A stretch of 64,000 nucleotides of DNA from Nioella nitratireducens. Its GTDB lineage: Bacteria > Pseudomonadota > Alphaproteobacteria > Rhodobacterales > Rhodobacteraceae. The stretch is from the NCBI RefSeq assembly GCF_001879715.1, contig NZ_MNBW01000005.1, positions 62,001 to 126,000 of the forward strand. Reading direction: 5' to 3'. Positions 43,767-62,207 of the stretch are shown here, in pieces. The position numbers and the translations under genes are program-made. Positions within the stretch are counted from its first letter, which is position 1, and every line of letters begins with the position of its first letter. The notes below the pieces were generated by a model. It was given only the letters and a program-made list of their open reading frames with translations. It did not search any database and was not told the origin of the DNA.

Positions 43767-43773
43767 GGCTATA

Positions 43774-43783
43774 TTGTGAACAA
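43774..43783. promoter_or_regulatory. Small palindrome before the LysR gene
   Basis: TTGTGAACAA (43774-43783) has TTGT/ACAA arms and lies eight bases before the LysR start codon in the divergent promoter region with doxX. It is a candidate LysR half-site only. Confidence 0.3.
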
Positions 43784-43898
43784 ATTGGAGAAAGTCATAG
43801 CCTAAAATCGCCATTTCATTGGTAAAGCGCAAGGCCCATCTTGCCCGGCATGGAAACGCACCGGGGGGTGGCCCCCGGACCAGACAGGAGATTGACCG

Positions 43899-44315
43899 AT
43901 GATCGACCAGAAAACCGCCCCCTATGCCGCACTTGTTTTGCGGCTGACAACCGGGGCCTTGTTCCTTGTGCACGGGCTGACCAAGCTCTTCGTCTTCACG
44001 CCTGCGGGCACCGCCGGGTTCTTCGGCTCTTTGGGTTTGCCCGAATGGCTGGGGCCGCTGACCATGGTGGTGGAAATTCTCGGGGGTATCGCGCTGATAC
44101 TTGGCGTGGGCACCCGCGTCGTGTCGGCGGTTCTCGTGCCGGTGCTGCTTGGCGCAGCTTTTACGGCCCATTGGGCCAACGGCTTCGGCTTTTCCAACGC
44201 CGGTGGCGGCTGGGAATACCCGATGATGTGGGCCGCCGTGCAGGCGTCGCTGGTGTTGCTGGGGGACGGGGCCTATGCCTTGAAACCGGTGTTGCTGCGG
44301 CCCGCGCAGGCCTGA
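43899..44315 (+). CDS. DoxX-family membrane protein
   Basis: A 138-residue inner-membrane protein with four predicted helices (about 10-30, 45-67, 70-92 and 106-128). The LVHGLTKLFVF segment and GLPEWLGPLTMVVEILGGIALILG match the DoxX family, linked to thiosulfate/quinone redox or oxidative stress defence. AGGAG lies before the ATG. It is followed after 22 bases by a DODA-type gene under the same LysR regulator, so a role in handling quinones or catechols is plausible. Confidence 0.87.
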   Translation: MIDQKTAPYAALVLRLTTGALFLVHGLTKLFVFTPAGTAGFFGSLGLPEWLGPLTMVVEILGGIALILGVGTRVVSAVLVPVLLGAAFTAHWANGFGFSNAGGGWEYPMMWAAVQASLVLLGDGAYALKPVLLRPAQA

Positions 44316-44337
44316 ACGCGCAGGAAAGGACAAGATC

Positions 44338-46105: not shown

Positions 46106-46115
46106 GACAGCCCCC

Positions 46116-47546
46116 TTACCAACTGGCCGAGATATACTGGGTTTCCATGAACTCCAGCATACCTTCGTGCCCGCCTTCGCGGCCAAGGCCAGATTGTTTC
46201 ACACCGCCGAACGGCGCGGCAGGGTCTGACACGAGGCCACGGTTGAGGCCGACCATGCCGTATTCCAGCCGCTCACAAACCTGCATGGCGCGCTTGAAAT
46301 CCTCGGAGAAGACATAGGCGACAAGGCCGTATTCGGTGTCGTTGGCGCGCCGGATCACGTCTTCCTGATCGGTGAAGGTCTGGATCGCGGCGACGGGGCC
46401 GAAGATCTCGTCCTTCACGCATTCAGCGGTTTCCGGCACGTTCGTCAGCACCGTGGGCGGGTAGAAGAAGCCCTTGCCGTTTGGCATCGTGCCGCCGCAG
46501 GTGATCTTGGCCCCCTTGGCCACGGCATCGGACACGAAGTCGGCCACCTTGTCGCGGGTATCGGCATTGACCAGCGGGCCAACATCGACCGACGGATCGG
46601 TGCCGTCGCCCACCTTGAGGGCCTGCATGCGCTCGGTCAGGCGGCGGGTAAATTCCTCTGCCACGGCCTCGTGCACATAGATGCGGTTGGCGGCGGTGCA
46701 GGCCTCGCCCAGATTGCGCATCTTGGCCAGCATGGTGCCCTCGATGGCGGTGTCCATGTCGGCGTCGTCGAACACGATGCAGGGCGCGTTGCCACCCAGT
46801 TCCATTGCCGGTTTCAGCACCTGGTCAGCCGCGGATTTCAGCAGCTTGCGGCCAACGCCAGTGGAGCCGGTGAAGCTGACCACGCGCACACGCGGATCGT
46901 GCAGCATATGGTCAACCAGCGCGCCGGTGCGGCGCGAGGGCAGCACGTTGACAAGGCCCTTGGGCACGCCCGCCTCTTCCAGAAGCGGCATAAGCGCCAG
47001 CATGGTCAGTGGGGTTTCCGAGGCGGGCTTGATGATGACACCGCAGCCGGCGGCCAGTGCAGGCGCAATCTTGCGGGTGCCCATGGCAGCGGGGTAGTTC
47101 CACGGCGTGACCAGCACGGCGAGGCCCGCAGGCTTGTGCTGCACGATGATCCGCGCGCCGGACGCGGGGGCGTGGGTGATCAGGCCATCGGCGCGCACGG
47201 CCTCTTCCGCGAACCAGCGGAAGAATTCTGCGGCATAGGTCGCCTCCCCCTTGGCGTCGACGCCCGCCTTGCCGTTTTCCAGCGTGATATAGGTGGCGAA
47301 TTCGTCCAGCCGCGCGGTCATCAGTTCCCACGCCTTGCGCAGCACTTCGGACCGTTCGCGCGGGGTGCGGGCGGCCCAGTCCTTCATCGCGGCTTCAGCA
47401 GCATCGAGCGCTGCGTCGGCGTCTGCGATTTCGGCAGACGCGACAGAGGCCAGGACTTCCTCGGTCGCGGGGTTTAGGACGTCGAAACGGACCTTGTCGG
47501 CGCCTTCGCGCCAGTGGCCGTTGATGTAGAGATCGGTAAATTCCAT
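46116..47546 (-). CDS. NAD(P)-dependent aldehyde dehydrogenase (succinate-semialdehyde DH-like)
   Basis: A 476-residue ALDH of the GabD-like group. The cofactor site VLVTPWNYPAAM and FTGSTGVGRKLL, catalytic Glu in LELGGNAPC (ELGGNA) and catalytic Cys in GEACTAANR are all in place. Its position between the two E2-type genes, 10-15 bases from each, suggests it oxidises the aldehyde that an acyloin dehydrogenase complex releases together with acyl-CoA. The exact aldehyde is not known. Confidence 0.9.
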   Translation of the reverse strand: MEFTDLYINGHWREGADKVRFDVLNPATEEVLASVASAEIADADAALDAAEAAMKDWAARTPRERSEVLRKAWELMTARLDEFATYITLENGKAGVDAKGEATYAAEFFRWFAEEAVRADGLITHAPASGARIIVQHKPAGLAVLVTPWNYPAAMGTRKIAPALAAGCGVIIKPASETPLTMLALMPLLEEAGVPKGLVNVLPSRRTGALVDHMLHDPRVRVVSFTGSTGVGRKLLKSAADQVLKPAMELGGNAPCIVFDDADMDTAIEGTMLAKMRNLGEACTAANRIYVHEAVAEEFTRRLTERMQALKVGDGTDPSVDVGPLVNADTRDKVADFVSDAVAKGAKITCGGTMPNGKGFFYPPTVLTNVPETAECVKDEIFGPVAAIQTFTDQEDVIRRANDTEYGLVAYVFSEDFKRAMQVCERLEYGMVGLNRGLVSDPAAPFGGVKQSGLGREGGHEGMLEFMETQYISASW

Positions 47547-47561: not shown

Positions 47562-48866
47562 TCAGAGCAGATGGCGGAGCGGCTCGGCCAGCCGTCCGGC
47601 AAATCCGCTGATAAGATCGAGCGCCTCGGCGGCAGAAAGCTGTTCGGGCGCGCATTCGAGTGTGAGGGTCAGACTGTCGCCCGCCCCTGTCAGCGTCAAC
47701 ACCGGGGTGTCTTCCGCCCCGAGGCTGATCGAGGTGAGCGGCGATCCGGCAAGGTCGCGGATGGTCAGGGCTGGTTGCCCATCCTCGGGGATCACGCGGG
47801 TCTGGCCATATGCTTCAATCGCCACGGCGGTGCCGGGCTGGCCAAGGGCCGCTGCGGCGAAGCTGGCCAGCAGGGCAGGGCGGTTCGCCGGGGCGCCGGT
47901 GTCCTTGGCGACCCATGCGCAGAAGGCGGCAAACGCCTGGGACGGGATTTCGGCGGTCAGGCGGCGGGTGGCTTGGGCCACAGCCCCGGTCGGACTGGTC
48001 ATCGTCGGCAGGCTGCGCAGCACGTCCAGATCGGCGGTGTGATAGGGCTGCGGATGGCCCGCCTCGACCAGGCGGCCAAGGTCCAGCCCCTCTTGCAGGG
48101 CAATGCGACGCGCCTTGGGCGAGGCAAGGATGCGCCCGCCAGGGGCGACCGGGGCCGCGGCCTTGGCAGCCGGTTTCGTCGGGGCCTTGGCCGGGGCCGG
48201 TTTGTCTTCGGCTTTGGCGGGGGCCGGGGCGGGGGCCGGTTTGGCCTTGCCCGCCCAGCTTCGCTGCATCGGGTTGTCCGGCTTGTCGCCCGAAATGATG
48301 GCGATCACCTCGCCCACGGGCGCGGCCTCGCCAGCCTCGGCCAGCAGCGCCGCGACAAAGCCGTCATGACCTGCTTCGACCTCCATCGTGGCCTTGTCGG
48401 TTTCCACTTCGAACAGGATATCGCCCGAAGTAACGGCGTCGCCCGGGGCCTTGTGCCACGCGACGATCACGCCTTCGTCCTGTGCCATACCGAGCGCGGG
48501 CATGATGATGCCGGTTCCGTCGGGCAGGTCATCCTGCGCGCCCGCGTCATCCTGGCCCACGTCCTCCTGCGCCGGGGCAGCTGCGGCGGTGCCGCTGCCC
48601 TCTGCCGTGTCCGAGATCATGGCGATCACATTGCCCACGGGCACATCCTCGCCATCGCCAGCGGTCACATCGGTCAGGAAGCCGTCGGCGGGCGCCTCGA
48701 CTTCCATCGTCGCCTTGTCGGTTTCCACCTCGAACAGCGCATCGCCCGTCTTGACCGCATCGCCGGCCTGTTTCAACCAGCTCACGATCTTGCCGGTGTC
48801 CTGCGCCATCCCGAGGGCGGGCATGATCACCTCATGCGGCGTGAAGCCAGCAGTTTCACGCGGCAT
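47562..48866 (-). CDS. Di-lipoyl carrier protein with E1/E3-binding domain and degenerate acyltransferase domain
   Basis: A 434-residue E2-like protein. Two lipoyl domains each have the VETDKATMEVEA motif (lipoylated Lys51 and Lys158), joined by Ala/Pro-rich linkers (about 86-115 and 205-240) to a peripheral subunit-binding domain (245-282). The C-terminal 130 residues have the size and strand pattern of an acyltransferase domain, but the HxxxDG active site is missing. It should carry acyl groups for the separate E2 at 45206-46105. Its start overlaps the E1-beta stop by 11 bases. Confidence 0.85.
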   Translation of the reverse strand: MPRETAGFTPHEVIMPALGMAQDTGKIVSWLKQAGDAVKTGDALFEVETDKATMEVEAPADGFLTDVTAGDGEDVPVGNVIAMISDTAEGSGTAAAAPAQEDVGQDDAGAQDDLPDGTGIIMPALGMAQDEGVIVAWHKAPGDAVTSGDILFEVETDKATMEVEAGHDGFVAALLAEAGEAAPVGEVIAIISGDKPDNPMQRSWAGKAKPAPAPAPAKAEDKPAPAKAPTKPAAKAAAPVAPGGRILASPKARRIALQEGLDLGRLVEAGHPQPYHTADLDVLRSLPTMTSPTGAVAQATRRLTAEIPSQAFAAFCAWVAKDTGAPANRPALLASFAAAALGQPGTAVAIEAYGQTRVIPEDGQPALTIRDLAGSPLTSISLGAEDTPVLTLTGAGDSLTLTLECAPEQLSAAEALDLISGFAGRLAEPLRHLL

Positions 48867-49851
48867 GGATCATCTCCCCTGACATGAGCTTGCGGGCGTT
48901 CTGGACCACGCCTTCCGGCGTCGGCACGGTGATATCCTCCAGCGCCGGGCTGAAAGGCACCGGCACGTCCATCGCCCCCATGCGCAACACCGGCGCGTCG
49001 AGATGGTAAAACGCTTTTTCGTTGATCCGGCCCGCGATTTCGCCGGTGATACCAAAGCTTTGGTGGCCTTCGTCCACCACGATCACGCGGCTGGTCTTCT
49101 TGGCGGATTCGATCAGCGTCTGTTCATCCAGCGGCACGATGGTGCGCGGGTCGATCACTTCGGCGCTGATGCCCTCGGCTTCCAGCATCTCGGCGGCCTT
49201 CTCGCAGACCTGCACCATGGAGGATGTGCCAATCAGGGTGATGTCCGTGCCCGCGCGCTTGATGTTCGCCTCGCCGAAGGGGATCAGAAATTCCTCCTTC
49301 GGGACCGGGGCCTTGTCGTTATACATCAGCTTGTCTTCGAAGATCACGACCGGATTGTTGTCGCGGATCGCGGTCTTCATCAGGCCCTTGGCCTCGTAGG
49401 CCGACGAGGGCAGCGCCACTTTCAGGCCCGGAATATGGGCCACCAGCGCGTGCAACGACTGGCTGTGTTGCGCCGCAGACCGGCGGGTTGCGCCAAGATT
49501 GGTGCGCAGAACCAGCGGCACGTTCAGCTTTCCACCCGACATGTAATAGGCCTTGGCCGCCTGATTGCAGAGCTGGTCCATGATCAGGAAGATGAAATCG
49601 CCGAACATCAGGTCGACGATCGGGCGCGAACCAGTCAGCGCCGCGCCCACGGCAAGGCCCATGAAGCCGGGTTCGGCGATCGGCGTGTCGATCACGCGTT
49701 CGGTGCCGAATTCTTCGACCAAACCGGACAGCACCTTGAAGGGCGTTCCGGCCTCGGCCACGTCTTCGCCGATGATGAAGGTGGTGGGGTCGCGGCGCAT
49801 TTCCTCGGCCAGCGCCTCGTTCACCGCTTGGGACAGGGTGATATTTCGCAT
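48856..49851 (-). CDS. TPP-dependent dehydrogenase E1 beta subunit (acetoin/pyruvate type)
   Basis: A 331-residue transketolase-like subunit, PdhB/AcoB type. Landmarks are LSQAVNEALAEEMRRDPTTFIIGEDVAEAGTPF, the IVDLMFGDFIFLIMDQ interface and EGHQSFGITGEIAGRI in the C-terminal domain. It joins E1 alpha to decarboxylate or cleave a 2-oxo acid or acyloin and reductively acylate lipoyl groups. Eleven bases after the alpha stop; overlaps the lipoyl carrier start. Confidence 0.92.
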   Translation of the reverse strand: MRNITLSQAVNEALAEEMRRDPTTFIIGEDVAEAGTPFKVLSGLVEEFGTERVIDTPIAEPGFMGLAVGAALTGSRPIVDLMFGDFIFLIMDQLCNQAAKAYYMSGGKLNVPLVLRTNLGATRRSAAQHSQSLHALVAHIPGLKVALPSSAYEAKGLMKTAIRDNNPVVIFEDKLMYNDKAPVPKEEFLIPFGEANIKRAGTDITLIGTSSMVQVCEKAAEMLEAEGISAEVIDPRTIVPLDEQTLIESAKKTSRVIVVDEGHQSFGITGEIAGRINEKAFYHLDAPVLRMGAMDVPVPFSPALEDITVPTPEGVVQNARKLMSGEMIHAA

Positions 49852-49862
49852 TTCAGGTCTCC

Positions 49863-50870
49863 TCAGGCACCGGGCCGCAGGGTGGCGGGGTCGGTCGGGG
49901 CAAAGACGTGCATGTCCACCTCGCTCTCATCGGGGTATTTGGCGGACAGCGCGTAATCGACGGCGGCCTTGGCGTCGGCGCGAATCTCGTCCTCCATCGC
50001 CTGCAAGTCCTCTGCGTTGGCGATGCCCTCTTCCGCCAGCCACTTGCCGAAATTGACGATCGGGTCGCGGCTTTCCTTCCAGATCGTCTCTTCTTCCTTG
50101 GCGCGGTAATAGTCGCGGTTGATGTCGCCCACGTGGTGGCCGTGATAGCGATAGGTCATCAATTCCACGAAGAACGGGCCTTCGCCCTTGCGCGCACGGG
50201 CAACCAGCCTCTCGGTCAGCTCGTTCACCGCCAGCACATCCTGCCCGTCAACGGTAAAGCTCTCGATCCCGAACGCCTCGGCCCGCGCGGGGATGGACCC
50301 CGCGGCGATTTCCTCGGTCTTTGTGTATTCGGAGTAGCCGTTGTTTTCGCAGGCATAAATGACAGGCAGCTTCCATAGGCTTGCCATGTTCATGACCTCG
50401 TAGAGCAGCCCTTGCGCGGTGGCGCCGTCGCCGAAGAAGCACACGCTTACATCGTCGGAGCCTTGCAACTTGGCGCGCAGCGCCGAGCCGGTGGCGATGC
50501 CCATGGACCCGCCCACGATGGCGTTGGCCCCAAGGTTTCCGTGGCTTTGGTCGGCGATGTGCATCGAGCCGCCCTTGCCGCGACAATAGCCCTCTTCCTT
50601 GCCCAGAAGCTCGCAGAACATCTGCTTGAAGTCGGCCCCCTTGGCCACGCAATGGCCATGGCCCCGGTGGGTCGAGGTGATGCGGTCGCTGTCGGTCAGC
50701 GCCTCGCAAATTCCCACGGCAACGGCTTCTTCGCCGGAATACATATGGGTCAGCCCCGGCATCTTGGCCGAGAGGTAAAGCTGGTTGGCATTGTCTTCGA
50801 AGACGCGGATGCGCACCATCTGGCGATACATCCGCAGGTAGTCTTCGGTGTTGGTCTTGGCTTTGGCCAT
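49863..50870 (-). CDS. TPP-dependent dehydrogenase E1 alpha subunit (acetoin/pyruvate type)
   Basis: A 335-residue TPP enzyme subunit, AcoA/PdhA type. The TPP motif GDGATAQGLLYEVMNMASLWKLP and its NNGYSEYT end are clear; YRYHGHHVGD follows. The SMHIADQSHGNLGANAIVGG stretch is the acetoin/pyruvate family block. First of five tightly spaced genes. A true pyruvate dehydrogenase is less likely because an ALDH lies in the operon and the E2 is split; acetoin-like acyloin cleavage is favoured. Confidence 0.9.
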   Translation of the reverse strand: MAKAKTNTEDYLRMYRQMVRIRVFEDNANQLYLSAKMPGLTHMYSGEEAVAVGICEALTDSDRITSTHRGHGHCVAKGADFKQMFCELLGKEEGYCRGKGGSMHIADQSHGNLGANAIVGGSMGIATGSALRAKLQGSDDVSVCFFGDGATAQGLLYEVMNMASLWKLPVIYACENNGYSEYTKTEEIAAGSIPARAEAFGIESFTVDGQDVLAVNELTERLVARARKGEGPFFVELMTYRYHGHHVGDINRDYYRAKEEETIWKESRDPIVNFGKWLAEEGIANAEDLQAMEDEIRADAKAAVDYALSAKYPDESEVDMHVFAPTDPATLRPGA

Positions 50871-50974: not shown

Positions 50975-52273
50975 TCAGTAGCGGTTCGCGATCGGCAGTT
51001 CCTGCGCCGGGAACAGCGAGATCACTTCGCAGCCGGTGTCGGTCACGACCACCTCTTCTTCGATCCGGGCGGCAGAATAGCCGTCGGAGGCCGGGCAGTA
51101 GGTTTCGAGGGCGAAGACCATGCCGGTCTGGATTTCCATCGGGTTGTCCAACGACACCGCGCGGCTGATGATCGGGCGTTCGTGCAGCGCCAGGCCCAGA
51201 CCGTGGCCGAATTGCAAGCCGAAGGCGCTCAGCTCGTCGGGGAAGCCGAATTCCTCGGCCTTGGGCCAGAGCTTGGCGACCTGGTCAGTGGTGACGCCGG
51301 GGCGGATCGCCTGGATCGACGCGTCGATCCATTCGCGGGCCCGGATATAGGCGTCGCGCTGCGAGGGCGTGGACATGCCGATGTTGAACGTCCGGTAATA
51401 GCAGGTCCGGTAGCCCTGGTAACTTTGCAGGATGTCGAAGAACGCCTGATCGCCGGGGCGGAACTGGCGGTCGGTGAAGTTGTGGGGGTGCGGGTTGCAG
51501 CGTTCGCCCGAGATGGCGTTGATCGCCTCGACATCGTCCGAGCCCCATTCGTAGAGCAGCTTGTTCGACATGGCGACGATCTCGTTCTCGCGTACGCCGG
51601 GTTTCAGCTCTTCGTAGATCATGTGGTAGACGCCATCGACCATGCTGGCCGCTTGCGTCAGCAACTGGATTTCGTCCCAGTTCTTGATCTCGCGCGCGCT
51701 CAGCATGATCTGCTGGCCATCGACCACGTTCAGCCCGGCCTCTTTCAGGGCGTGGAACATGGCGGTTTCGGCGTAGTCCACGCCCACGGGCATGTCCTTC
51801 ATCCCGGCGTCTTCGATCAGGCCGGCGATTTCTTCGGCGTATTTCTTCATCAAGCCAAAAGAGGGCGGGATCGTGCCCCGCATGCCGACGACACCGGCGC
51901 GGCAATGGTCGGGGACCAGCCAGTCGGAGTATTTCTTGTGGTGTACGGCTGCAGAGCCGAAATCCCACACGTAAGGCGCGTCGTCGCCGGTCAGCAGGCA
52001 GAAACGGCACATCTTGTCGCGTTCCCATTCACCGATCTTGGTGGCCGAGACGTAGCGGATGTTGTTCACGTCGAACAGCAGCAGGGTGCCGCAATCGCTG
52101 GCCTTCAGCGCTTCGCGGGTGCGCGACAGGCGATACCGGCGCAGGCGGTCATGATCGACGCGGCGTTCGAAATCAACCGAGGTGTGCCCCCAGGCGGGCA
52201 GGCGGCCTTCCCACTTCCAGTTCGGGTCGAGATCCTGCGGGGTGAGGACATTCGGGGTGAGTGCGCGGTTCAT
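50975..52273 (-). CDS. M24-fold (creatinase/aminopeptidase P) hydrolase with altered metal site
   Basis: A 432-residue pita-bread-fold protein with the two-domain layout of creatinase, ectoine hydrolase and the DMSP lyase DddP. Expected M24 metal ligands Asp280, His357, Glu390 and a Glu at 405-407 are visible, but the second aspartate position (11 residues after Asp280) is Cys291 in the segment RTCYYRTF. The enzyme may therefore be mono-metal or metal-independent, as creatinase is. Substrate unknown; neighbours suggest a carbohydrate- or polyol-linked C-N or C-S bond. Same strand as the SDR and regulator. Confidence 0.8.
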   Translation of the reverse strand: MNRALTPNVLTPQDLDPNWKWEGRLPAWGHTSVDFERRVDHDRLRRYRLSRTREALKASDCGTLLLFDVNNIRYVSATKIGEWERDKMCRFCLLTGDDAPYVWDFGSAAVHHKKYSDWLVPDHCRAGVVGMRGTIPPSFGLMKKYAEEIAGLIEDAGMKDMPVGVDYAETAMFHALKEAGLNVVDGQQIMLSAREIKNWDEIQLLTQAASMVDGVYHMIYEELKPGVRENEIVAMSNKLLYEWGSDDVEAINAISGERCNPHPHNFTDRQFRPGDQAFFDILQSYQGYRTCYYRTFNIGMSTPSQRDAYIRAREWIDASIQAIRPGVTTDQVAKLWPKAEEFGFPDELSAFGLQFGHGLGLALHERPIISRAVSLDNPMEIQTGMVFALETYCPASDGYSAARIEEEVVVTDTGCEVISLFPAQELPIANRY

Positions 52274-52344: not shown

Positions 52345-53154
52345 CTACTGGATGCACCAGCCGCCGTCGATGTGGATCATCTGGCCGGTCATGTAGTCGC
52401 TGTCGTCGCTGGCGAGGAACGATGCGGTTCCGACGATATCCTTGGGATAGGAGACCCGCTTGATCACCAGTTCGTTCTCGACGATGTCGTCATAGGCCTG
52501 ACCGGCGCGTTCCTTGAACCCGATCTCGACCAGATCCTTGTCGAGCTGTTCCCAGAGCGGTGTGACCACGACGCCGGGCGCGTAGCCGTTGACAGTGATG
52601 TTGTGTTCGGCCAGCCCGAGTGCGCCGCAATGGGTCAGCGCGAGGCAGCCGTATTTCGAGGTGCAATAGACGGTCACGTCGATCAGTGGCTTGCGCGAGG
52701 CGATCGAGCCCACGTTGATGATCTTGTAGGGGTGATCCTCCATCGGACCCTGCGCGATCATCTGGCGGGCGGCTTCCTGCATGCCCAGCCACATCGCCTT
52801 GGTGTTGACGTTCATGATCATGTCCCAGTTGTCTTCGTCGATATCCATGAAGAACCGGGGCTTGTTGAGGCCTGCGTTGAACAGGGCCACGTTGATATTG
52901 CCGAAGGCCTCGACCGTGGTGGCGACGGCGGCGGCGTTGTCCTCGCGCTTGGTTACGTCCATCCGGACGGCAATCGCCTTGCCGTTGCCGGCGGAATTGA
53001 TGCGCTCGGCAACTTCCTGCGCCTCGTCGAGGTCGAGGTCACCGATACACACATTCGCGCCTTGCGCGGCGAAGGCCTCGGCATTGCCAGCACCCATGCC
53101 GCGCGCGGCCCCGGTGATGAGAATATTTTTCCCTTTCAGGCGATTGGGGTCCAT
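52345..53154 (-). CDS. Short-chain dehydrogenase (polyol/sugar type), paralogue of the gene at 56.3 kb
   Basis: A 269-residue SDR. The cofactor motif is GAARGMGAGNAEAF (14-27), NAGLNKP takes the NNAG position, and Ser/Tyr/Lys are in VGSIASRKPLIDVTVYCTSK. The C-terminus SDYMTGQMIHIDGGW is classical. It is clearly related to the SDR of the divergent ABC operon, including NKP and EAARQMIAQG segments, so both may oxidise hydroxyls of the same polyol family. ATG 53154 follows the regulator stop by 11 bases; the longer frame is rejected. Confidence 0.88.
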   Translation of the reverse strand: MDPNRLKGKNILITGAARGMGAGNAEAFAAQGANVCIGDLDLDEAQEVAERINSAGNGKAIAVRMDVTKREDNAAAVATTVEAFGNINVALFNAGLNKPRFFMDIDEDNWDMIMNVNTKAMWLGMQEAARQMIAQGPMEDHPYKIINVGSIASRKPLIDVTVYCTSKYGCLALTHCGALGLAEHNITVNGYAPGVVVTPLWEQLDKDLVEIGFKERAGQAYDDIVENELVIKRVSYPKDIVGTASFLASDDSDYMTGQMIHIDGGWCIQ

Positions 53155-53165
53155 GGGGTCCTCCT

Positions 53166-55001
53166 CTAGTCCCTTGTCGATTGCATCACCGCCTCGGCGC
53201 GGGACTGGGCCCGGGACAAGGCGTCGCGCGGGGTCGTGATGCCCCGCAACATGTCGTGGATTTCCTGACCGCAGATGGCGATCATCTCGGAAATCTGGGG
53301 CGCCGGCGGGCGCGGCCAGAATTGCAGCTCGTCGCGCCAGGACATGGCGTCGACGGCCTCGAAAATCGGTGAGAGCTGGCGCACCTCGGGGTCGGCCCCG
53401 ACCGAGTAGCGGGGCGCCGTGCGGCTGCCGTTCATGACGTAGAGCTTCTGCGCCTCGGGCGAGGTGAAGGCGACCAGCGCCTCTGCCGCCTGCTGCTTGC
53501 GCTCGGCTGGCAGGTTCGACGGCAGGCACAGCACATAGCCGCCCACCGGCGCGATCGGCTGGCCATGCGGACCGGCGGGATGCGGCAGGTAGCCGGTGGC
53601 GCCGTGGGCGGGCGAGGACTCGTCCAGCTCGAAATAGGGCGCCAGCAGAGTGTAGCCGTAGGCCATGGCAATCTTGCCGGCGGCGTAGGGGCGCACGCGC
53701 TCGTACCACGACATCGACAGGATGTCGGTCGGCGAAAATTCCAGCAGCGCCATCAGGTATTCCGCCGCTTCCAGCGCGCGGGGGGTGTTCAATGTCGGCA
53801 CCAGATCGCGACGGTCGAGATGATCGGCATCATAGCCGCCCGCGATGGCGTCGAGGTTGAAGACCGGCTGGCCGAAATCTGCGCAGGTCATCATGAAGGT
53901 GTGGCCAAGCGCAGTGCCGCGGGCCGCGTTCCACGCGATGCCATAGCGGCCACGGGCGGGATCGTGCAGGGCTTTCGCGGCGCGCAGCAGGTCGTCGGTG
54001 GTGGCGGGCGGTTCCAGCCCCGCCTCGGCGAACCAGTCCTTGCGGTAAAACAGCAGTTCCGGGGTGGTCTGGCTGGGCACACCGTAGGGACGCCCGCCCC
54101 AATGCGCCGCCCGCCAGCCCGCCGTGTGAAAATCGCTGGGGTCAAGCCGGTCGATGTCGAGCACATCGTCAAGCGGTGTCAACAGTCCGCGGGCAACGAA
54201 CTCTCCCAGCCATGGCAGATCGACGGCGATGATGTCGTAGCGGCTGGCGCTGTGCTCGGCGTTGCGGATCGCCTCTTCGTGCAAGCGGTCAATGGAAAAG
54301 GCGCGCTGGCTGATCTTGGTGCCGATCACCTGCTCGAACTGGCGCTTGAGGTTTTCCATGACCATGAAGGTGGGGTCGCCGTGAACGAGGATGCGCAGGC
54401 CGCCCGGCAGCTTGAGCGGCTCTGGCAAAACCTTCGGCGGCTGGATCGACCGTGCCGATTTGTAGGAGCCGCCGAAGTAGTAATCGGCGCCCTCGCGGCT
54501 GTCCGGCGAGGGCGCGATCTGGTTGAGCCGGGTTTTCGCCAGCCGCAGGATGCGGTCCGACAATTGCGCCCAGTTTTGCAGCATGGCGGCACTTGGGTGC
54601 AGCGAAAAGCTCTTGCCTGACCGCGTGCGGGGGCGCTGTTCGATCAGGCCGGCGTCTTGCAACTCGGTCAGTTTTCGCCGCGCGGTGGCGTAGGGCACGC
54701 CCGAGGCCGCGATCACCGAGGACGCGGTGCAGATGCGGCCTTCGAGGTGGTTGCGGACAAGGTGAATGGCCATGTTGAGATAGGGGTTTGGCGCCGCGAT
54801 ATCGAGGGCCGTCTCGACCTCTGCTGAGAAATCTTCAATAAGATCAATGGCCTGATGGATTTCGGATGGACCAAACGGGGGCATTCCAGCAGTCACTGGC
54901 TTGCCTCCGAGTAAATATTCGTTTTGAACATTTTTCATGGCCCGCTCTTCTTCGGATGGGGGGCGAAAGCCTTGGCCTGGGCCCCGATTCACGTCGGTCA
55001 T
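53166..55001 (-). CDS. Winged-helix regulator fused to a sugar-binding-protein (SBP_1) domain
   Basis: A 611-residue protein without signal peptide. Residues about 72-140 form a winged helix (RICTASSVIAASGVPYATARRKLTEL, then a basic wing with RPRTRSGK). Residues about 200-605 match an extracellular solute-binding protein of the MalE/UgpB kind: GGLRILVHGDPTF, FSIDRLHEEAIRNAE, YGVPSQTTPELLFYRKDWFAEAGLEPP, and YAAGKIAMAYGY. A sugar-binding fold used as an intracellular sensor on a DNA-binding domain is unusual. GAGGGAG lies before ATG 55001; ATG 54938 is an alternative. Divergent from a Rbs-type ABC operon, with an inverted repeat between them. Confidence 0.85.
   Translation of the reverse strand: MTDVNRGPGQGFRPPSEEERAMKNVQNEYLLGGKPVTAGMPPFGPSEIHQAIDLIEDFSAEVETALDIAAPNPYLNMAIHLVRNHLEGRICTASSVIAASGVPYATARRKLTELQDAGLIEQRPRTRSGKSFSLHPSAAMLQNWAQLSDRILRLAKTRLNQIAPSPDSREGADYYFGGSYKSARSIQPPKVLPEPLKLPGGLRILVHGDPTFMVMENLKRQFEQVIGTKISQRAFSIDRLHEEAIRNAEHSASRYDIIAVDLPWLGEFVARGLLTPLDDVLDIDRLDPSDFHTAGWRAAHWGGRPYGVPSQTTPELLFYRKDWFAEAGLEPPATTDDLLRAAKALHDPARGRYGIAWNAARGTALGHTFMMTCADFGQPVFNLDAIAGGYDADHLDRRDLVPTLNTPRALEAAEYLMALLEFSPTDILSMSWYERVRPYAAGKIAMAYGYTLLAPYFELDESSPAHGATGYLPHPAGPHGQPIAPVGGYVLCLPSNLPAERKQQAAEALVAFTSPEAQKLYVMNGSRTAPRYSVGADPEVRQLSPIFEAVDAMSWRDELQFWPRPPAPQISEMIAICGQEIHDMLRGITTPRDALSRAQSRAEAVMQSTRD
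54913..54930 (+). promoter_or_regulatory. Second operator-like half-site inside the regulator's 5' coding end
   Basis: AAATATTCGTTTTGAACA (54913-54930) matches 16 of 18 bases of AAATATCCGTTTTGAACT at 55052-55069. The copies are 139 bases apart in the same orientation, one in the gap and one in the regulator gene. A looped repression complex is possible. Confidence 0.5.
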
Positions 55002-55060
55002 TGATCGACTCCCTCTGTTGTGTCGGAGTGGGTGTTCCGAGAGAACATCACAAATATCCG

Positions 55061-55084
55061 TTTTGAACTATCAGATGTTCAAAA
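55061..55084. promoter_or_regulatory. Inverted-repeat operator between regulator and ABC operon
   Basis: TTTTGAAC (55061-55068) and GTTCAAAA (55077-55084) are perfect eight-base arms with an eight-base spacer, in an AT-rich patch of the 210-base divergent gap. It is the obvious candidate binding site for the winged-helix/SBP protein and lies about 130 bases before the SBP gene and 60 before the regulator. Confidence 0.65.
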
Positions 55085-55211
55085 TGAACAAATCCAATAC
55101 GGATCGAAAACCGTAAACAAGGGATCAATGCGGCGTCCGGTTGCCGGGCAGGGGTGATTCCCGCTTGGAGGTTGGCAACTGCGATCTATGAAAATCCAAG
55201 GGAGAGAGAGA

Positions 55212-56180
55212 ATGACGAAACTGAACACTGCGATGCTGGCCGCCACCACCGCCCTCGCGGGCATGGCCTTTGCCGGTGCCGCGACCGCGCAGGACACCTG
55301 GCGCATCGGGATTACCCAGAACAACGTGGGCGTGGACAGCTACCAGACGACGTATGAAAGCGCCTTCATCGCCGCCGCAGAAGCCAACCCGAATGTCGAG
55401 GTGGTCGTCCTTGATGCCGGTGGCGACGTGGCCCGCCAGATCGCGCAAGTGCAGGATCTCATCCAGCAGGAAGTCGACGCGATCATTATCTGGCCGACCA
55501 ACGGTCAGGCCGTGATCCCCGCTGTGCGTGAAGCCTTCCAGTCCGATATCCCGGTGATCGTGACCAACTCGAACATCGCGGAAGACGGCTTCCCGTTCGT
55601 GGCGTCCTTCTCGGGGCCCGACAACATTACCCAAGGCCGTCGCGCGGCGGAAATCATGTGCACCCGCTTTGAAGACCTGGGTATTCAGGACGAAGCGCAG
55701 ATCGTGCAGATCACCGGTCAGCCGGGCTACACCACTGCCATCGAGCGCGCGCAGGGCTTTGAAGAACGCCTGCCCGAGGTCTGCCCGAACGTGACGCTGG
55801 TGGAAAGCCAGCCGGGCAATTGGAACCGCGAAGACGCGCAGCGCGTGATGGAAGCGTTCCTTGTCCAGTATGACAATATCGACGGTGTCTATTCCGGCGA
55901 TGACAACATGGGCGTTGGCGCACTGAACGCTGCCCTTGCAGCCGGTCGCGCAGAGGGCATCACCTTCGTGGGGGCCACCAACTTCGCCGTGGGCTACGAC
56001 GCCATGGGTCGTGGTGAATACTGGGGGTCCATCTACCAGTCGCCGGTGGATGACGCCGAGGCCGCGCTGCAAACCGCGCTCGACGTGCTGAACGGCGAGG
56101 ACGTGCCGTTCCTCAACTACTTCGACACGCCGAAGATTACGCAAGAGAACATGGACCAGTACGACCGTCCGGTGTTCTGA
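55212..56180 (+). CDS. Sugar/polyol ABC transporter substrate-binding protein (RbsB type)
   Basis: A 322-residue periplasmic protein of the PBP type 1 sugar-binding family. A signal peptide ends near ATA (about residue 27). The mature start DTWRIGITQNNVGVDSYQTTYE, the QVQDLIQQEVDAIIIWPTN block and DGVYSGDDNMGVGALNA are family features. GGGAGAGAGAGA precedes ATG 55212; an upstream ATG at 55188 is weaker. First gene of the import operon, followed by a hairpin likely to raise its relative level. Confidence 0.93.
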   Translation: MTKLNTAMLAATTALAGMAFAGAATAQDTWRIGITQNNVGVDSYQTTYESAFIAAAEANPNVEVVVLDAGGDVARQIAQVQDLIQQEVDAIIIWPTNGQAVIPAVREAFQSDIPVIVTNSNIAEDGFPFVASFSGPDNITQGRRAAEIMCTRFEDLGIQDEAQIVQITGQPGYTTAIERAQGFEERLPEVCPNVTLVESQPGNWNREDAQRVMEAFLVQYDNIDGVYSGDDNMGVGALNAALAAGRAEGITFVGATNFAVGYDAMGRGEYWGSIYQSPVDDAEAALQTALDVLNGEDVPFLNYFDTPKITQENMDQYDRPVF

Positions 56181-56274: not shown

Positions 56275-57072
56275 ATGGGACGTGTCTCGGGACGTGCCTG
56301 TATCGTGACGGGTGCCGCACAGGGGATCGGGCGCGCCATCGGGGAAGCGCTGCTCGACGAAGGGGCGGATGTGTGTTTCGCCGATATCAACGCCGACAAG
56401 GTGGCCGCCGTTGCCGATGCCAACCGCGAGCGGGCCGCGGAAAACGGCGGCAAGGTGATCTGGGCCGCCGTCGATGTGACCAAGCGCGAGCAGGTTCGCG
56501 CGATGATCGACAAGGCCGTCGCGGCCTTTGGTCGGCTCGATGTGAAATTCAACAATGCCGGGGTGAACAAGCCGATGAACTTCCTCGACGTGACCGAGGA
56601 TAACTGGCGGTTCATCATGGATATCAACGGGCTTGGCTGCATGATCGGAATGCAGGAAGCCGCGCGCCAGATGATTGCGCAGGGCACGGGCGGCAAGATC
56701 GTGAACACCGCTTCGATCGCCAGCCGGCAAGGGTTCGATAACGTCGCGCCCTATTGCGCGTCGAAATTCGCCGTGGTCTCGTTGACGCAATCGGGTGCGC
56801 GCGATCTTGCCAAGCATGACATCACGGTGACCGGCTTTGCGCCGGGCGTGGTGGCCACGGAAATGTGGGAAGAGGTGGACCGCGACCTGATGGCCATCGG
56901 CGCAGCCGAGCGTCCGGGGCAGGCGATGGAGGAGTTTTCGGCCGATATCCTGAAAGGGCGGGTTGCCCGTCCTGACGATATCACCGGAACCACCACGTTC
57001 CTTGCGTCGCGCGACAGCGATTACATGACCGGTCAGATCGTGATGATCGACGGCGGCATGACACTGGTCTGA
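56275..57072 (+). CDS. Short-chain dehydrogenase (polyol type) in the ABC operon
   Basis: A 265-residue SDR with GAAQGIGRAIGEAL as cofactor motif, NNAGVNKP, and Ser/Tyr/Lys in TASIASRQGFDNVAPYCASK; C-terminus SDYMTGQIVMIDGGMTLV. It likely oxidises a secondary hydroxyl of the imported sugar alcohol. A related SDR is on the other side of the regulator. GGGAGG lies before the ATG. Located between the binding protein and permease genes, an intrusion that ties catabolism to uptake. Confidence 0.9.
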   Translation: MGRVSGRACIVTGAAQGIGRAIGEALLDEGADVCFADINADKVAAVADANRERAAENGGKVIWAAVDVTKREQVRAMIDKAVAAFGRLDVKFNNAGVNKPMNFLDVTEDNWRFIMDINGLGCMIGMQEAARQMIAQGTGGKIVNTASIASRQGFDNVAPYCASKFAVVSLTQSGARDLAKHDITVTGFAPGVVATEMWEEVDRDLMAIGAAERPGQAMEEFSADILKGRVARPDDITGTTTFLASRDSDYMTGQIVMIDGGMTLV

Positions 57073-57132
57073 GGATCGGACGTTTCCGGCACCTCCCGAA
57101 TGGCGGGGCTGGAGACTACTGGGAGGAAAGAG

Positions 57133-58113
57133 ATGACGGACAGCAGAGCGAAGGCCCTTGGCGGCCTTCTGGCACGGCAGGGCATCCTGGTGGCCTTCGT
57201 GCTATTCATGGTCGGGTTTGCCCTGTGGAACCCGAGGTTCATCGGCATCGACAACGTGTTCGGGGTAATCCGGTCCTCGGCCATTCTGGGGGTCATGGCG
57301 CTTGGCGTGACCTTCGTGGTGATCGGCGGCAACCTTGACCTGTCGGTCGGGTCGATGATGTCGTTCTCGGCTATCGTGGTTCTGGACCTGCACGAAAATC
57401 CGGCTTTCGGGCCGGCGCTGGCGATTCCGGCGATGTTTGCCATGACCATGGCGCTCGGGGCGCTGATCGGCTTCCTTGTCGGCTATCTCAAGCTTAATTC
57501 GCTGATTGTCACGTTGGGAATGCTCTCGGCCATTCATGGGCTGACGCTGGCCTATAGTGGCGGGCAGAACATGGACATCGCCAACCAGCAGGCGACATGG
57601 TTCGGTGTCTTCGGACGCGGCACCGTGGCGGGCGTGCCGATCCCGGTGCTGATGTTCGGTGGGCTGGCGTTGATTCTGGCGGTCATATTGGCGAAGACGC
57701 CCTTTGGCCGAAAGGTCTACGCGGTCGGCGGCAACGGCACGGCGGCGACCTTTTCCGGTATCCCGCGCGCGCGGGTCGTTTTCATGACCTACCTGATCTC
57801 GTCTTTCTGCGTCGCCACGGCCGGCCTGATTCAGGCCAGCCGAACCATGGGCGCGCAGAACACCGTGGGCCAAGGGATGGAGCTTGAGGTTCTGGCCGCG
57901 GTTATCCTTGGCGGGGCCTCGCTGCTCGGCGGGTCCGGCACCGTGTTCAAGACCGTGATCGGCGTGCTGATCCTTGGCTTCATTCAGAACGGCCTGCTGT
58001 TGGCCGGACTGCAATTCTACGCTCAGTTCGTCGTGACCTGGGTCATCATCATCCTTGCGGTCTGGCTGGATATCGCGGCCAAGCGTGGCCGTCTCTGGTC
58101 ACCGATCGCGTGA
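57133..58113 (+). CDS. Sugar ABC transporter permease (RbsC type), first
   Basis: A 326-residue inner-membrane permease with eight to ten helices. IGGNLDLSVGSMMSFSAIVV and NSLIVTLGMLSAIHGLTLAYSGGQ are RbsC-family blocks, as is LEVLAAVILGGASLLGGSGTVFKT. GGGAGGAAAGAG precedes ATG 57133; the frame from 57100 is not used. A second permease follows 11 bases later, so the channel is probably a heterodimer. Confidence 0.92.
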   Translation: MTDSRAKALGGLLARQGILVAFVLFMVGFALWNPRFIGIDNVFGVIRSSAILGVMALGVTFVVIGGNLDLSVGSMMSFSAIVVLDLHENPAFGPALAIPAMFAMTMALGALIGFLVGYLKLNSLIVTLGMLSAIHGLTLAYSGGQNMDIANQQATWFGVFGRGTVAGVPIPVLMFGGLALILAVILAKTPFGRKVYAVGGNGTAATFSGIPRARVVFMTYLISSFCVATAGLIQASRTMGAQNTVGQGMELEVLAAVILGGASLLGGSGTVFKTVIGVLILGFIQNGLLLAGLQFYAQFVVTWVIIILAVWLDIAAKRGRLWSPIA

Positions 58114-58124
58114 GGGAGGGGACA

Positions 58125-59126
58125 ATGACAAAACCGACCCTATCCGGCCTGATCAAGAACGGCGCGATCTGGGGCTTCATCGTGTTGGAGCTGATCTTCT
58201 TCTCGGTCGCGGGCCATTTCTGGTCGATGTCCGAGAGCGCCTTCATGGATTTCGGCAACATGCTGCTGTTGCTCAAGCAATCGGCCCCCATCGGCATCAT
58301 CGCCGTGGGCATGACCGTCATCATGATCAACGGCAATATCGACCTGAGCGTCGGGGCTACCTATGCCCTGTCCGCCGTGGTCATGCTCGACTCGATGAGT
58401 TGGCCGATCTTCGCCGGGCTTGGCGATTGGGTGATCCCGGTGGCATGGCTCTTGGCCCTGTTGACCGGTGTGACCCTTGGCCTGATCAACGGGTTGATCG
58501 TTTGGAAAACCGGCGTCGATGCCTTCATCGTGACCCTTGGCGCGATGCTGGGCTATCGCGGTCTGGTCTTCATGTATAACGGCGAGCAGCCGACCTATCA
58601 CCTGAACTGGACCATGGTCGACATTGCCGAGGCCAACGTGCTGGGGCTGGAGACGCCCTCGCTCGTCCTGATCGCGGTGGTTGTGATCGTCTGGCTTTTG
58701 ATGACGCGCACGGTGCATGGCCGCAACGCCTATGCCATCGGCGACAACCGCGAAGCGGCGGTGAATGCCGGTATCCGGGTCGGGCCACACATGCTGCTGA
58801 ACTTTGCGTTGATCGGGTTCCTGTCTGCGCTGTCGGCGGTGGCCTTCTATTCCGCCAGCGGCTCGGTGAACCCCAATGACGGCACATTGTTCGAGTTGTG
58901 GGCCATCACGGCAGTGGTGCTTGGCGGCACCAAGCTGACCGGCGGCAGCGGCTCGATCATCGGCACCTTCGGCGGTGTCATTGCCATCCAGCTATTGCGC
59001 AAGGGGCTTGGCTATATCGGGGCTGACACCGAGACTGTGAACCTCGTGATCGGAACGATCCTGATCGCTGTCCTGTTCCTCGACAAGCAACTCAACCGCA
59101 AAGGACAAGAGGAGCTGAAGGTATGA
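58125..59126 (+). CDS. Sugar ABC transporter permease (RbsC type), second
   Basis: A 333-residue permease related to the preceding one. INGNIDLSVGATYALSAVVMLD and DAFIVTLGAMLGYRGLVFMYNGEQ are the family motifs, and LWAITAVVLGGTKLTGGSGSIIGT the last block. A GTG at 58110 overlaps the previous stop, but ATG 58125 follows GGGAGGGGAC and is preferred. Four-base overlap with the ATPase gene. Confidence 0.92.
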   Translation: MTKPTLSGLIKNGAIWGFIVLELIFFSVAGHFWSMSESAFMDFGNMLLLLKQSAPIGIIAVGMTVIMINGNIDLSVGATYALSAVVMLDSMSWPIFAGLGDWVIPVAWLLALLTGVTLGLINGLIVWKTGVDAFIVTLGAMLGYRGLVFMYNGEQPTYHLNWTMVDIAEANVLGLETPSLVLIAVVVIVWLLMTRTVHGRNAYAIGDNREAAVNAGIRVGPHMLLNFALIGFLSALSAVAFYSASGSVNPNDGTLFELWAITAVVLGGTKLTGGSGSIIGTFGGVIAIQLLRKGLGYIGADTETVNLVIGTILIAVLFLDKQLNRKGQEELKV

Positions 59127-60637
59127 CCGATCAAACACCGGCCCTGCGGCTTGAAAACATCGTCAAGACCTTCCCCGGCGTGCGTGCGCTCGGCGGGGTG
59201 AGCTTCGAAGTCTTCCCCGGCGAAGTCCATGCCCTGATGGGCGAAAACGGGGCGGGGAAATCGACGCTTATGAAGGTGCTTGGCGGCATCTACCAGCCCG
59301 AGGAAGGCCGCATCTTCGTGGAAGAGGTCCAGACCGTGATGACATCGCCGCTTCAGGCCAAGGCCAAGGGCGTGATGTTCATCCACCAGGAACTGAGCCT
59401 TGCGGAAGAGTTGAGCGTGGCGGAAAACGTCTATCTGGGCGAGTTGCCGCGCAAGAGCTTTGGCCGCGTGGACTGGGCACGACTGTATGCCCAGACCGAT
59501 GAAATCCTCGACCGGCTAAAGGTCAGCTTCAATGCCCGCACGCGGGTTGGGGATTTGTCGATCGCCAACCAGCAGATGGTGGAAATCGCCCGCGCCCTGA
59601 CCGTGGAGGCCAAGGCGGTGATTTTTGATGAACCGACCGCCTCGCTGACCGATGCCGAGAAAGTCGTGCTGTTCGACGTGATCAGCGACCTGCGGGCCGA
59701 TGGGGTGGGGATTGTCTACATTTCGCACCGGATGGAAGAAATCTTCAAGATCACCGACCGGATCTCGGTTCTGCGCGATGGCGAATACCGGGGCACCTTG
59801 GTCACCGCCGAGACCGACGAGGATGAAATCACCCAAATGATGATCGGGCGCAGCCTGGACCTGAGCCGGAACGCGGCCCCGGTCGAGGTCGGCGAGGTCG
59901 CCTTGCGGGTCGAAGGGCTGTCCTGTGGAGACCTGTTCCAGGATGTGAGTTTCGAGTTGCGGCAGGGCGAGGTCGTCGGCTTCTACGGTTTGGTGGGTGC
60001 AGGGCGCACCGAGATTGCCGAGACCCTCTTTGGACTGCGCACACCGTCGAGCGGCCGCATCTTCCTGAAAGACGAGGAGCTGAAAATCTCGTCGCCCATC
60101 GAGGCCATCGGGCACGGCATTTCGCTGGTGCCGGAAAGCCGCAAGGAACAGGGCCTGATCCTTGGCATGAATTGCCGGGACAACATCACCTTGCCACAGG
60201 TCGATGACATGACGGCGGGGCCCTTCGTGGCCGACGGGGCCGAGGTAGCGATCTTTGACCAGTACCGCGACCGGCTGCAAATCAAGACGCCGAGCTGGCG
60301 CACCTCTGTGGGCAGCCTGTCGGGCGGCAACCAGCAAAAGATCGTCATCGGCAAATGGCTGGCGATGCGGCCCGATGTGCTGATCGTCGACGAACCGACG
60401 CGCGGGATCGACGTGGGCTCCAAGTCGGAAATTCACAACCTGCTGCGCGATCTGGCCGCGCAGGGCTATGCCGTCATGGTGATCTCGTCGGAAATGCCCG
60501 AGGTGCTGCATGTGTCTGACCGGATCATCGCCATGTATCACGGGCGCATCATGCGCAAGTTCGGCGTCGGCGAGGTGACCGAGGACAGTCTGGTGCAGGC
60601 GATCTCGGGCATCGGCGGAGACGGGCAGGCCGCGTAA
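59123..60637 (+). CDS. Sugar ABC transporter ATPase with two nucleotide-binding domains (RbsA type)
   Basis: A 504-residue double ATPase. The first domain has Walker A GENGAGKST, a RbsA-type signature LSIANQQMVEIARAL and Walker B VIFDEPTASLTD. The second has a degenerate Walker A GLVGAGRTE, signature LSGGNQQKIVIGKWL and VLIVDEPTRGIDVG. One degenerate site is normal in this family. ATG overlaps the permease stop, and its TAA shares one base with the next ATG. Confidence 0.93.
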   Translation: MTDQTPALRLENIVKTFPGVRALGGVSFEVFPGEVHALMGENGAGKSTLMKVLGGIYQPEEGRIFVEEVQTVMTSPLQAKAKGVMFIHQELSLAEELSVAENVYLGELPRKSFGRVDWARLYAQTDEILDRLKVSFNARTRVGDLSIANQQMVEIARALTVEAKAVIFDEPTASLTDAEKVVLFDVISDLRADGVGIVYISHRMEEIFKITDRISVLRDGEYRGTLVTAETDEDEITQMMIGRSLDLSRNAAPVEVGEVALRVEGLSCGDLFQDVSFELRQGEVVGFYGLVGAGRTEIAETLFGLRTPSSGRIFLKDEELKISSPIEAIGHGISLVPESRKEQGLILGMNCRDNITLPQVDDMTAGPFVADGAEVAIFDQYRDRLQIKTPSWRTSVGSLSGGNQQKIVIGKWLAMRPDVLIVDEPTRGIDVGSKSEIHNLLRDLAAQGYAVMVISSEMPEVLHVSDRIIAMYHGRIMRKFGVGEVTEDSLVQAISGIGGDGQAA

Positions 60638-61506
60638 TGCGTGTTGGATTTGCGGGGCTTGGCCGTATGGGCCAGCGCATGGCTGCGAACCTGATCGGGG
60701 CGGGGTATGACCTGACGGTCTGGACGCGGAACAGCGACAAGGCACAGGCGTTCGCGGTGGCGCAGGGATGCGCAGTCGCCGACAGCCCGCGCGCCCTGTC
60801 CGATGCGGTGGACGTGTTGGTCACGATGTTGGCCGACGATCCCGCTTCGCAAGACGTGCATCTGGGCGCGGACGGGCTGTTCAGGGGCACTCGCGCGCGC
60901 ACCTTCGTGGAGATGGGCACGATGAGCCCCGCGCATATCGCCGCGCTGGCCGCCGCCGCGCCAGAAGGAGCCACCGTGATCGACGCGCCGGTGTCCGGTG
61001 CCACGCAGGCCGCCGCCGATGCGCAGCTGCTGATCATGGCAGGGGCAAAGGCCGACACGGTGGCAGAGGTCCAGCCGCTCTTTGACGCCATGGGCAAGGA
61101 GACCATCTGCCTTGGCCGCACTGGTGCGGGCGCGGTGATGAAACTGGCGGTCAACATGCTGATCCACGGCATCAACCAGACCTTCGCCGAGGCGATGACG
61201 CTGGCCGAGGCCTCCGGCATCCCCACCGGTGCAGCGTTCGAGGCGATCGAAGCGAGTGCCGCCTGCGCACCGATGCTGACGTATCGCAAGCCGCTCTACC
61301 TCGACGAGGCGGCCCATGACGTGACTTTCACCGTGGCACTCGCCCAGAAAGACATGCGGGTGACGGCGGCGCTGGCCGATTCCTACAACGTCGCGCTACC
61401 GCAATCGCGGGCCACGCTCGATATCCTCAACAAGGCGGTCGCCGCCGGGTATGACGCCCGCGACATGGCCGCCATCCTTGATTTCATGCGGGAGAGCAAA
61501 CCATGA
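60637..61506 (+). CDS. 3-hydroxyisobutyrate dehydrogenase-family oxidoreductase
   Basis: A 289-residue beta-hydroxyacid dehydrogenase. The N-terminal VGFAGLGRMGQRMAANL binds NAD(P), DAPVSGATQAAADAQLLIMAG is the substrate block, and the catalytic Lys is in GAVMKLAVNMLI. Likely oxidises a hydroxy acid such as tartronate, glycerate or an aldonate derived from the imported compound. Coupled to the ATPase by a one-base stop/start overlap and to thuA-like by four bases. Confidence 0.9.
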   Translation: MRVGFAGLGRMGQRMAANLIGAGYDLTVWTRNSDKAQAFAVAQGCAVADSPRALSDAVDVLVTMLADDPASQDVHLGADGLFRGTRARTFVEMGTMSPAHIAALAAAAPEGATVIDAPVSGATQAAADAQLLIMAGAKADTVAEVQPLFDAMGKETICLGRTGAGAVMKLAVNMLIHGINQTFAEAMTLAEASGIPTGAAFEAIEASAACAPMLTYRKPLYLDEAAHDVTFTVALAQKDMRVTAALADSYNVALPQSRATLDILNKAVAAGYDARDMAAILDFMRESKP

Positions 61507-62207
61507 AAGCTGCGCTTTTTGTCGGGGGTTGGGAAGGCCACGCCCCCACCGATTTCAGTGATTGGTGCGAGGCCCTGCTGACCGACAACGGCTTTGAGGT
61601 CGATGTCTACAACACGCTGGAACCGCTGGAGCACCCCGAGACCCTGTCCGATGTCGACCTGATCGTGCCAATCTGGTCCTCGGCCCGGTCGGGCCACAAG
61701 GAAGAGTTCGGCAACATGACCAAGCCGCAGGAAGACGGGCTGTTGCAGCTTGTCTCGGAAGGGCGGGGCATCGCGGGCTGGCATGGCCATATGGGCGACG
61801 CGTTCCGCGACCGGCCAACCTATCATTTCTTGATCGGCGGGCAGTTCGTGGCGCATCCGCCGGGCTGGCCGGACAACCTGCAACCGCGCGAGGACTACAT
61901 CGACTACGATGTGACCATCTGCAAACCCGCCGACCCGCTGGTCGAAGGCATCAAGAGCTTTCGCCTGCGGTCCGAGCAATATTACATGCTGGTGGACCCT
62001 TCGAACGAGGTTCTGGCCACGACGACCTTTTCCGGCGATCACCTGTGGTGGATCGAAGGCACGGTCATTCCCGTCGTCTGGAAGCGTCGGTGGGACAAGG
62101 GCCGCGTCTTCTATTGCTCGATCGGGCACGAGCTGGACGACCTGAAGGTGCCGCAGGTCACGGAAATCCTGCGCCGGGGCATGATCTGGGCGGCAACGCG
62201 GGGGTAA
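61503..62207 (+). CDS. ThuA-domain protein
   Basis: A 234-residue GATase1-like fold protein of the ThuA family, found with sugar uptake and keto-sugar metabolism genes. KAALFVGGWEGHAPTDF opens the fold, GRGIAGWHGHMGDAFRD holds the conserved His pair, and GRVFYCSIGHELDDLKVP is the C-terminal block. Enzymatic role is not established; isomerisation or hydrolysis of a keto-glycoside is proposed for relatives. Last gene of the import operon. Confidence 0.88.
   Translation: MKAALFVGGWEGHAPTDFSDWCEALLTDNGFEVDVYNTLEPLEHPETLSDVDLIVPIWSSARSGHKEEFGNMTKPQEDGLLQLVSEGRGIAGWHGHMGDAFRDRPTYHFLIGGQFVAHPPGWPDNLQPREDYIDYDVTICKPADPLVEGIKSFRLRSEQYYMLVDPSNEVLATTTFSGDHLWWIEGTVIPVVWKRRWDKGRVFYCSIGHELDDLKVPQVTEILRRGMIWAATRG

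Follow-up and report, generated by a model that had tools for sequence, protein, structure and literature searches.

The LacI and LysR families comprise intracellular regulators whose sensors have a periplasmic-binding-protein fold (type 1 in LacI, a small type 2 of about 200 aa in LysR), and Btr from Bacillus joins an AraC HTH to a siderophore-binding-protein domain. The closest precedents in overall design are SgrR from E. coli and DsvR (Vca0578) from V. cholerae, both one-component regulators in which the HTH is N-terminal and a solute-binding domain follows at the C-terminus (PMC13060122). In a 64,000-nucleotide stretch of DNA from Nioella nitratireducens (hereafter the window), the gene at 53166..55001 on the minus strand encodes a 611-aa protein that resembles SgrR and DsvR in carrying an HTH and a full solute-binding-protein (SBP) domain without an export signal. 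The sensor of SgrR and DsvR belongs to SBP_bac_5, whereas that of the window protein belongs to SBP_bac_1; Pfam searches gave no match to SBP_bac_5 or SgrR_N, and SBP_bac_1/SBP_bac_8 and MarR_2/IclR/TrmB-type matches were found instead. Furthermore, the SgrR and DsvR regulons consist of sRNA, stress or division genes, in contrast to the divergent transporter and catabolic operon found here. Judged by its domain content, the regulator is best regarded as working like SgrR but standing outside the SgrR family, the defining features of which are absent. Btr represents another captured ABC-importer SBP, but one that differs in both HTH and SBP class. A search of open-licence papers identified no description of an SBP_bac_1 regulator family or of this architecture. 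An earlier sequence-only reading of this DNA had called the sensor likely undescribed; the SBP_bac_1 version does appear new and is well supported as a family, whereas the principle of an HTH on an SBP was already known from SgrR and DsvR.

The regulator gene is a single uninterrupted open frame of 611 codons, contiguous in about 80 genomes. The sequence GGGAG lies 7 nt ahead of the start codon (M1), and an M1-like start with a Shine-Dalgarno-like sequence was the best start in most orthologues. Codon 36, a GTG with a Shine-Dalgarno sequence as good as that of M1, was considered as an alternative start and would place the third operator site (see below) in the leader; most orthologues favor the M1 equivalent. 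A scan using one genome per species revealed 80 related loci with 62-80% identity to the regulator, in carriers that include Stappia, Roseivivax, Loktanella, Phaeobacter plasmids, Roseibium, Martelella and Mesorhizobium. Both halves of the protein were in one frame, between the same two divergent operons, at all 80 loci, and a frameshift or mis-assembly fusing two genes was ruled out by this identical contiguous fusion. Hydropathy analysis identified no signal peptide, membrane helix or hydrophobic N-terminus in the 611-aa protein. The single 611-residue frame without signal peptide claimed by the sequence-only reading was thus borne out, and neither the frameshift nor the separately encoded halves that it had raised against its own proposal were seen.

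The regulator is the first gene of a catabolic operon on the minus strand. It is followed after 11 bp by an SDR dehydrogenase gene (SDR1, 52345..53154), and then by genes for an M24-family (creatinase/Xaa-Pro-like) protein (50975..52273), the E1 alpha (49863..50870) and E1 beta (48856..49851) subunits of a 2-oxoacid/acetoin-dehydrogenase-type enzyme, a biotin/lipoyl-domain protein (47562..48866), an aldehyde dehydrogenase (ALDH, 46116..47546) and a 2-oxoacid dehydrogenase E2 catalytic domain (45206..46186, although translation probably begins nearer 46105). Convergent with the end of the operon is a gene for a LigB-type ring-opening dioxygenase, beside a LysR-family gene (44338-45162, 42876-44573). 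The divergent ABC operon on the plus strand begins with a CUT2-type periplasmic binding protein (Peripla_BP_4, 55212..56180, start inferred from the ribosome-binding site), followed by a second SDR dehydrogenase (SDR2, 56275..57072), two CUT2 permeases and an ATPase (57100..60637), and a 3-hydroxyisobutyrate-dehydrogenase-like reductase with a ThuA-family protein (60637..62207). Gene order was strikingly stable across the related loci. The regulator gene shared its strand with SDR, M24, E1 alpha, E1 beta, lipoyl protein and ALDH genes, in that order; the opposite strand held the genes for the CUT2 binding protein, an SDR, two permeases and the ATPase, and in many cases the reductase and ThuA genes came next. 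The binding protein was kept at 76 of 81 loci, M24 at 75/81, the ATPase at 73/81 and E1 alpha plus beta at 61/81, counting loci that reach a contig end. A Phaeobacter plasmid copy of the locus contained E2 and lpdA in addition. A plasmid search using the intergenic DNA gave no match.

The DNA-binding half was established by three lines of evidence, namely AlphaFold modelling, fold matches in the PDB and HMM matches in relatives. Pfam analysis of the N-terminus of the window protein gave sub-threshold matches only (IclR, 0.013; TrmB, 0.014; MarR_2, 0.044; also HTH_20). Among 47 orthologues, however, MarR_2 matched 17 at a threshold of 0.01 (best E 3e-5), and HTH_IclR exceeded its gathering score in a Paraburkholderia member (31 vs 22 bits). 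The sequence-only reading had named as its decisive check a protein that matches winged-helix and SBP_1 HMMs independently and is conserved next to ABC operons across many species; such matches were found at the level of the family, with the winged-helix match of the window protein itself remaining below threshold. The AlphaFold model, built from an alignment of the 47 orthologues, displayed helices at residues 73-87, 93-99 and 104-116 and a two-strand wing at 120-124/132-136, in the order helix, helix, recognition helix, wing, flanked by long helices at 45-65 and 138-162. Foldseek analysis of the whole model returned a list filled by SBPs and uninformative on the N-terminal half, and for this reason the winged-helix domain was also modelled alone (pLDDT 86). 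The top solved matches to this separate model were MarR proteins (MepR, Z 11.3; MexR and others). These analyses define a MarR-topology DNA-binding and dimerisation domain at residues 45-162 (54516..54869, minus strand), with the winged helix at 73-136. The winged helix placed near residues 72-140 by the sequence-only reading is present, as part of a wider dimer unit that spans about residues 45-162.

The window protein shares with the MarR family a winged helix that has a dimerisation helix on either side, and a dyad operator; however, classic MarR proteins are about 140 aa long and bind ligand at the dimer interface, whereas this 611-aa protein has a 400-residue SBP domain appended. The IclR family may also show a resemblance, with HTH_IclR the top N-terminal HMM in some members, scoring above gathering in L108 and below it in the window protein, and with predicted control of catabolic operons, but its ligand-binding domain gave no Pfam match here and an SBP stands in its place. 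NCBI automatic annotation labels members of the family extracellular solute-binding proteins, and NCBIfam has no fitting model (the best, MalE, scored 26 bits against a cut-off of 291). This annotation, together with the normal export of SBP_bac_1 proteins, would point to a substrate-binding protein that is exported to the periplasm or beyond and carries an unusual extension at its N-terminus. We consider such a protein very improbable, given the lack of signal peptide and membrane helix, the winged helix with its conserved operator, and the complete adjacent transporter that has another binding protein.

The C-terminal half (residues 197-608; 53178..54413, minus strand) is an SBP_bac_1 domain of the MalE/UgpB type, in agreement with the earlier assignment to residues from about 200 to 605. 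Pfam SBP_bac_1 matched residues 251-519 with an E value of 4e-28 (99.6 bits vs a gathering score of 26), and the fold aligned with 5IAI, an Agrobacterium solute-binding protein, with Z 45 over 392 residues (rmsd 2.1, 24% identity). The sensor is thus a full-length SBP_bac_1 domain, in contrast to the PBP type 1 domain of LacI and the small type 2 domain of LysR. Fold and conservation are consistent with a working binding cleft in this domain. Between the two halves lies the motif DYYFGGSY (residues 173-180; 54462..54485, minus strand), which is invariant or near-invariant in the 47 orthologues and present in most paralogues; this linker region had low pLDDT in the AlphaFold model.

The C-terminal 412 residues resemble CUT1 binding proteins such as 5IAI (Arad_9887) and MalE. 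Unlike these proteins, the regulator has no signal peptide, is fused to a DNA-binding domain and adjoins a transporter of another class. The transporter-component fold, and the ABC genes that adjoin the regulator at nearly all loci, would also fit an SBP domain that has no free ligand and serves for protein-protein interaction, perhaps by contacting the membrane-bound ABC permease and so sensing transport flux. This is improbable in our view: the domain belongs to the CUT1 (SBP_bac_1) class and is therefore mismatched to the adjacent permease, which is part of a CUT2 transporter with Peripla_BP_4, and SBPs dock on the permease at its periplasmic face. A ligand-binding sensor on a MarR-like head remains the preferred reading.

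To define the DNA target, an operator matrix was refined on 81 divergent regions. This analysis revealed a predicted operator common to these intergenic regions, a 15-bp dyad of the form TRTYCA-N3-TGRAYA. Sites of at least 9 bits occurred 3.6 times per locus compared with 0.025 in shuffles, an optimistic ratio given that the 81 regions are the training set. Two sites were exactly 21 bp (two helical turns) apart in 79 of the 81 loci, and more sites were found about 34 bp and 137-160 bp further on, the last often within the 5' coding end of the regulator gene. An initial, stricter motif pattern had identified sites in 52/81 loci. When the matrix was applied unchanged to 14 loci outside training, 25 sites of at least 15 bits were detected compared with 1.75 in dinucleotide shuffles, and 8 sites of at least 19 bits compared with 0.05 expected. 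Thirteen of these loci had paralogues only; the remaining one, L127, is from another class, encodes a member with 55% identity over the SBP half and carries two sites 21 bp apart at the regulator start. No strong site was present directly upstream of the regulator itself in L105, L106, L107, L111, L114 and L129, some of which have one at a neighboring promoter. Covariation between the arms was weak, with Fisher p values of 0.03 and 0.004 at position 4 (uncorrected for phylogeny) and no covariation at position 2, and was dropped as proof of dyad recognition.

In the window, site 1 (TGTTCAAAATGAACA, 19.7 bits) is at 55076..55090, and site 2 (TATCCGTTTTGAACT, 15.4 bits) at 55055..55069, 21 bp from site 1. 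The sequence-only reading had placed a single operator at 55061-55084; a palindrome does exist at 55061..55084, formed by one arm of each site (the right one for site 2, the left one for site 1), and the 24-bp operator was replaced by the tandem 15-bp dyads. Site 3 (TATTCGTTTTGAACA, 17.9 bits) lies at 54916..54930, within codons 24-29 of the regulator, and many orthologues have a site in a comparable place. The conserved N-terminal peptide NVQNEY/NIQNEY coincides with this third site, and its conservation may reflect selection at the DNA rather than the protein level. No sigma-70-like promoter was recognised in 54880-55260. A scan of the window genome with one strict IUPAC pattern identified 16 places, compared with 3 for the reversed control. 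One strong outside site, an operator-like match of 20 bits, falls in an intergenic region of the window genome (L141:1501-1515; contig C5:90946), upstream of a LysR-type regulator gene that is a possible extra member of the regulon.

Locus L128, whose regulator shows about 35% identity over the SBP half, has 20-bit sites both in front of the regulator/CUT2 divergent region and in front of a separate SDR-M24-E1 operon. L128 provides the best evidence that the catabolic genes would belong to the regulon. The common operator array and the operator at each of the L128 operons support the earlier proposal that the regulator controls the divergent ABC operon and its own catabolic operon. L128 and L132 come from small alphaproteobacterial genomes of about 1.4 Mb that retain a divergent regulator member; L128 also retains ABC, SDR, M24 and E1 genes and two operators. 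The pathway may therefore be important in streamlined bacteria.

The position of the sites bears on the direction of control. In the window, the transporter SBP starts about 120-155 bp downstream of the sites, which is far for simple repression, and SgrR and DsvR both activate their targets, with SgrR also repressing itself. The protein might therefore activate these operons in response to ligand, or regulate them in both directions, with far-upstream tandem dyads recruiting polymerase when the SBP is loaded; in our judgement this arrangement is rather unlikely. Against it, the L128 and L132 sites are about 50-77 bp upstream of start codons, the usual place for a repressor, and MarR and IclR-type catabolic regulators are frequently repressors. 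We consider it likely that the protein is a cytoplasmic one-component regulator with a MarR-like head on tandem dyads and an SBP sensor, most likely releasing repression of both operons. According to this model of derepression, a dimeric MarR-like winged helix would bind the 15-bp dyads, in tandem 21 bp apart, between the two divergent operons. The CUT2 transporter would bring in substrate via its own, unrelated binding protein (Peripla_BP_4), and the substrate or an intermediate would build up in the cell and close the two-lobed, cytoplasmic SBP_bac_1 domain of the regulator. Closure would be transmitted by the YYFGGSY linker and the dimer helix, altering the geometry and DNA binding of the MarR-like head and leading to derepression of the catabolic operon (SDR, M24, E1/E2, ALDH) and the divergent CUT2 ABC operon.

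The ligand is probably a polyol- or sugar-like substrate or intermediate. The 5IAI crystal contains ribitol (PMC8468352). A polyol or deoxy-polyol is suggested because this relative holds ribitol and the operons are rich in dehydrogenases. The acetoin-dehydrogenase-like E1/E2 and the SDRs hint faintly at a route in which a deoxyketose is cleaved to acetyl-CoA and an aldehyde, the latter passing to ALDH.

Paralogues with 25-50% identity, mostly from alphaproteobacteria plus Paraburkholderia, had both halves in register and were located beside other sugar operons. A Skermanella paralogue neighbors CUT2, intradiol dioxygenase and maleylacetate reductase genes; an Agrobacterium paralogue neighbors CUT2, CUT1 and Gfo/Idh/MocA genes; Sinorhizobium has another paralogue beside a different operon, Aminobacter one beside CUT1 and Paraburkholderia one beside an iolG-like gene. 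In a genome of the same genus (L109:7663-17132), a second ABC operon, of the CUT2 type, has a different paralogue on each side (46% and 37% identity to the window protein), which suggests two sensors serving one transporter. Paralogues at L104:1-11000, L106:1-9000 and L107:8900-14100 adjoin intradiol dioxygenase and maleylacetate reductase genes, with genes for sugar ABC transport or dehydrogenases nearby, a setting that hints at a route of the cyclitol or hydroxyquinol kind. Profile searches of sampled genomes identified a match in 9 of 289 from the class and 9 of 397 from the phylum; these counts are rough, with 3-4 candidates scored per genome, and a few matches covered the SBP half only. 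On balance, we favor the view that these proteins constitute an undescribed one-component family, found in many alphaproteobacteria and in certain other proteobacteria, and that it arose when a complete CUT1-type SBP was captured from an ABC importer, apparently once, as an intracellular sugar/polyol sensor, with a single operator code (TRTYCA-N3-TGRAYA) kept across many different catabolic operons. With members annotated as extracellular binding proteins, a group of transcription factors, together with the regulons they control, has probably been overlooked. The operator code could be used to predict regulons of uncharacterised sugar/polyol pathways, and the modular design, in which a large SBP that switches conformation is joined to a MarR-like head, would be of interest for biosensor work.

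The nearest SBP-only relative (L113:3683-9092) shares 42% identity with the SBP half; it bears a signal peptide and adjoins two BPD_transp_1 permeases and a TOBE-containing ATPase, which together represent a CUT1 importer. In a maximum-likelihood tree of SBP domains, a single branch set off all 20 regulators; L113 was basal in their clade, and the remaining secreted SBPs fell outside it. Support for the branch uniting the regulators was moderate (72/61; 70% of bootstrap trees). A single origin is the most parsimonious reading of this tree: the capture of a transporter binding protein, with loss of its signal peptide, probably happened only once. The alternative is that the head was lost in L113. 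With a signal-peptide-bearing relative at its base, the family would show directly how the binding protein of an importer can become a sensor that binds DNA. The ligand of L113 would be informative on the ancestral sensor.
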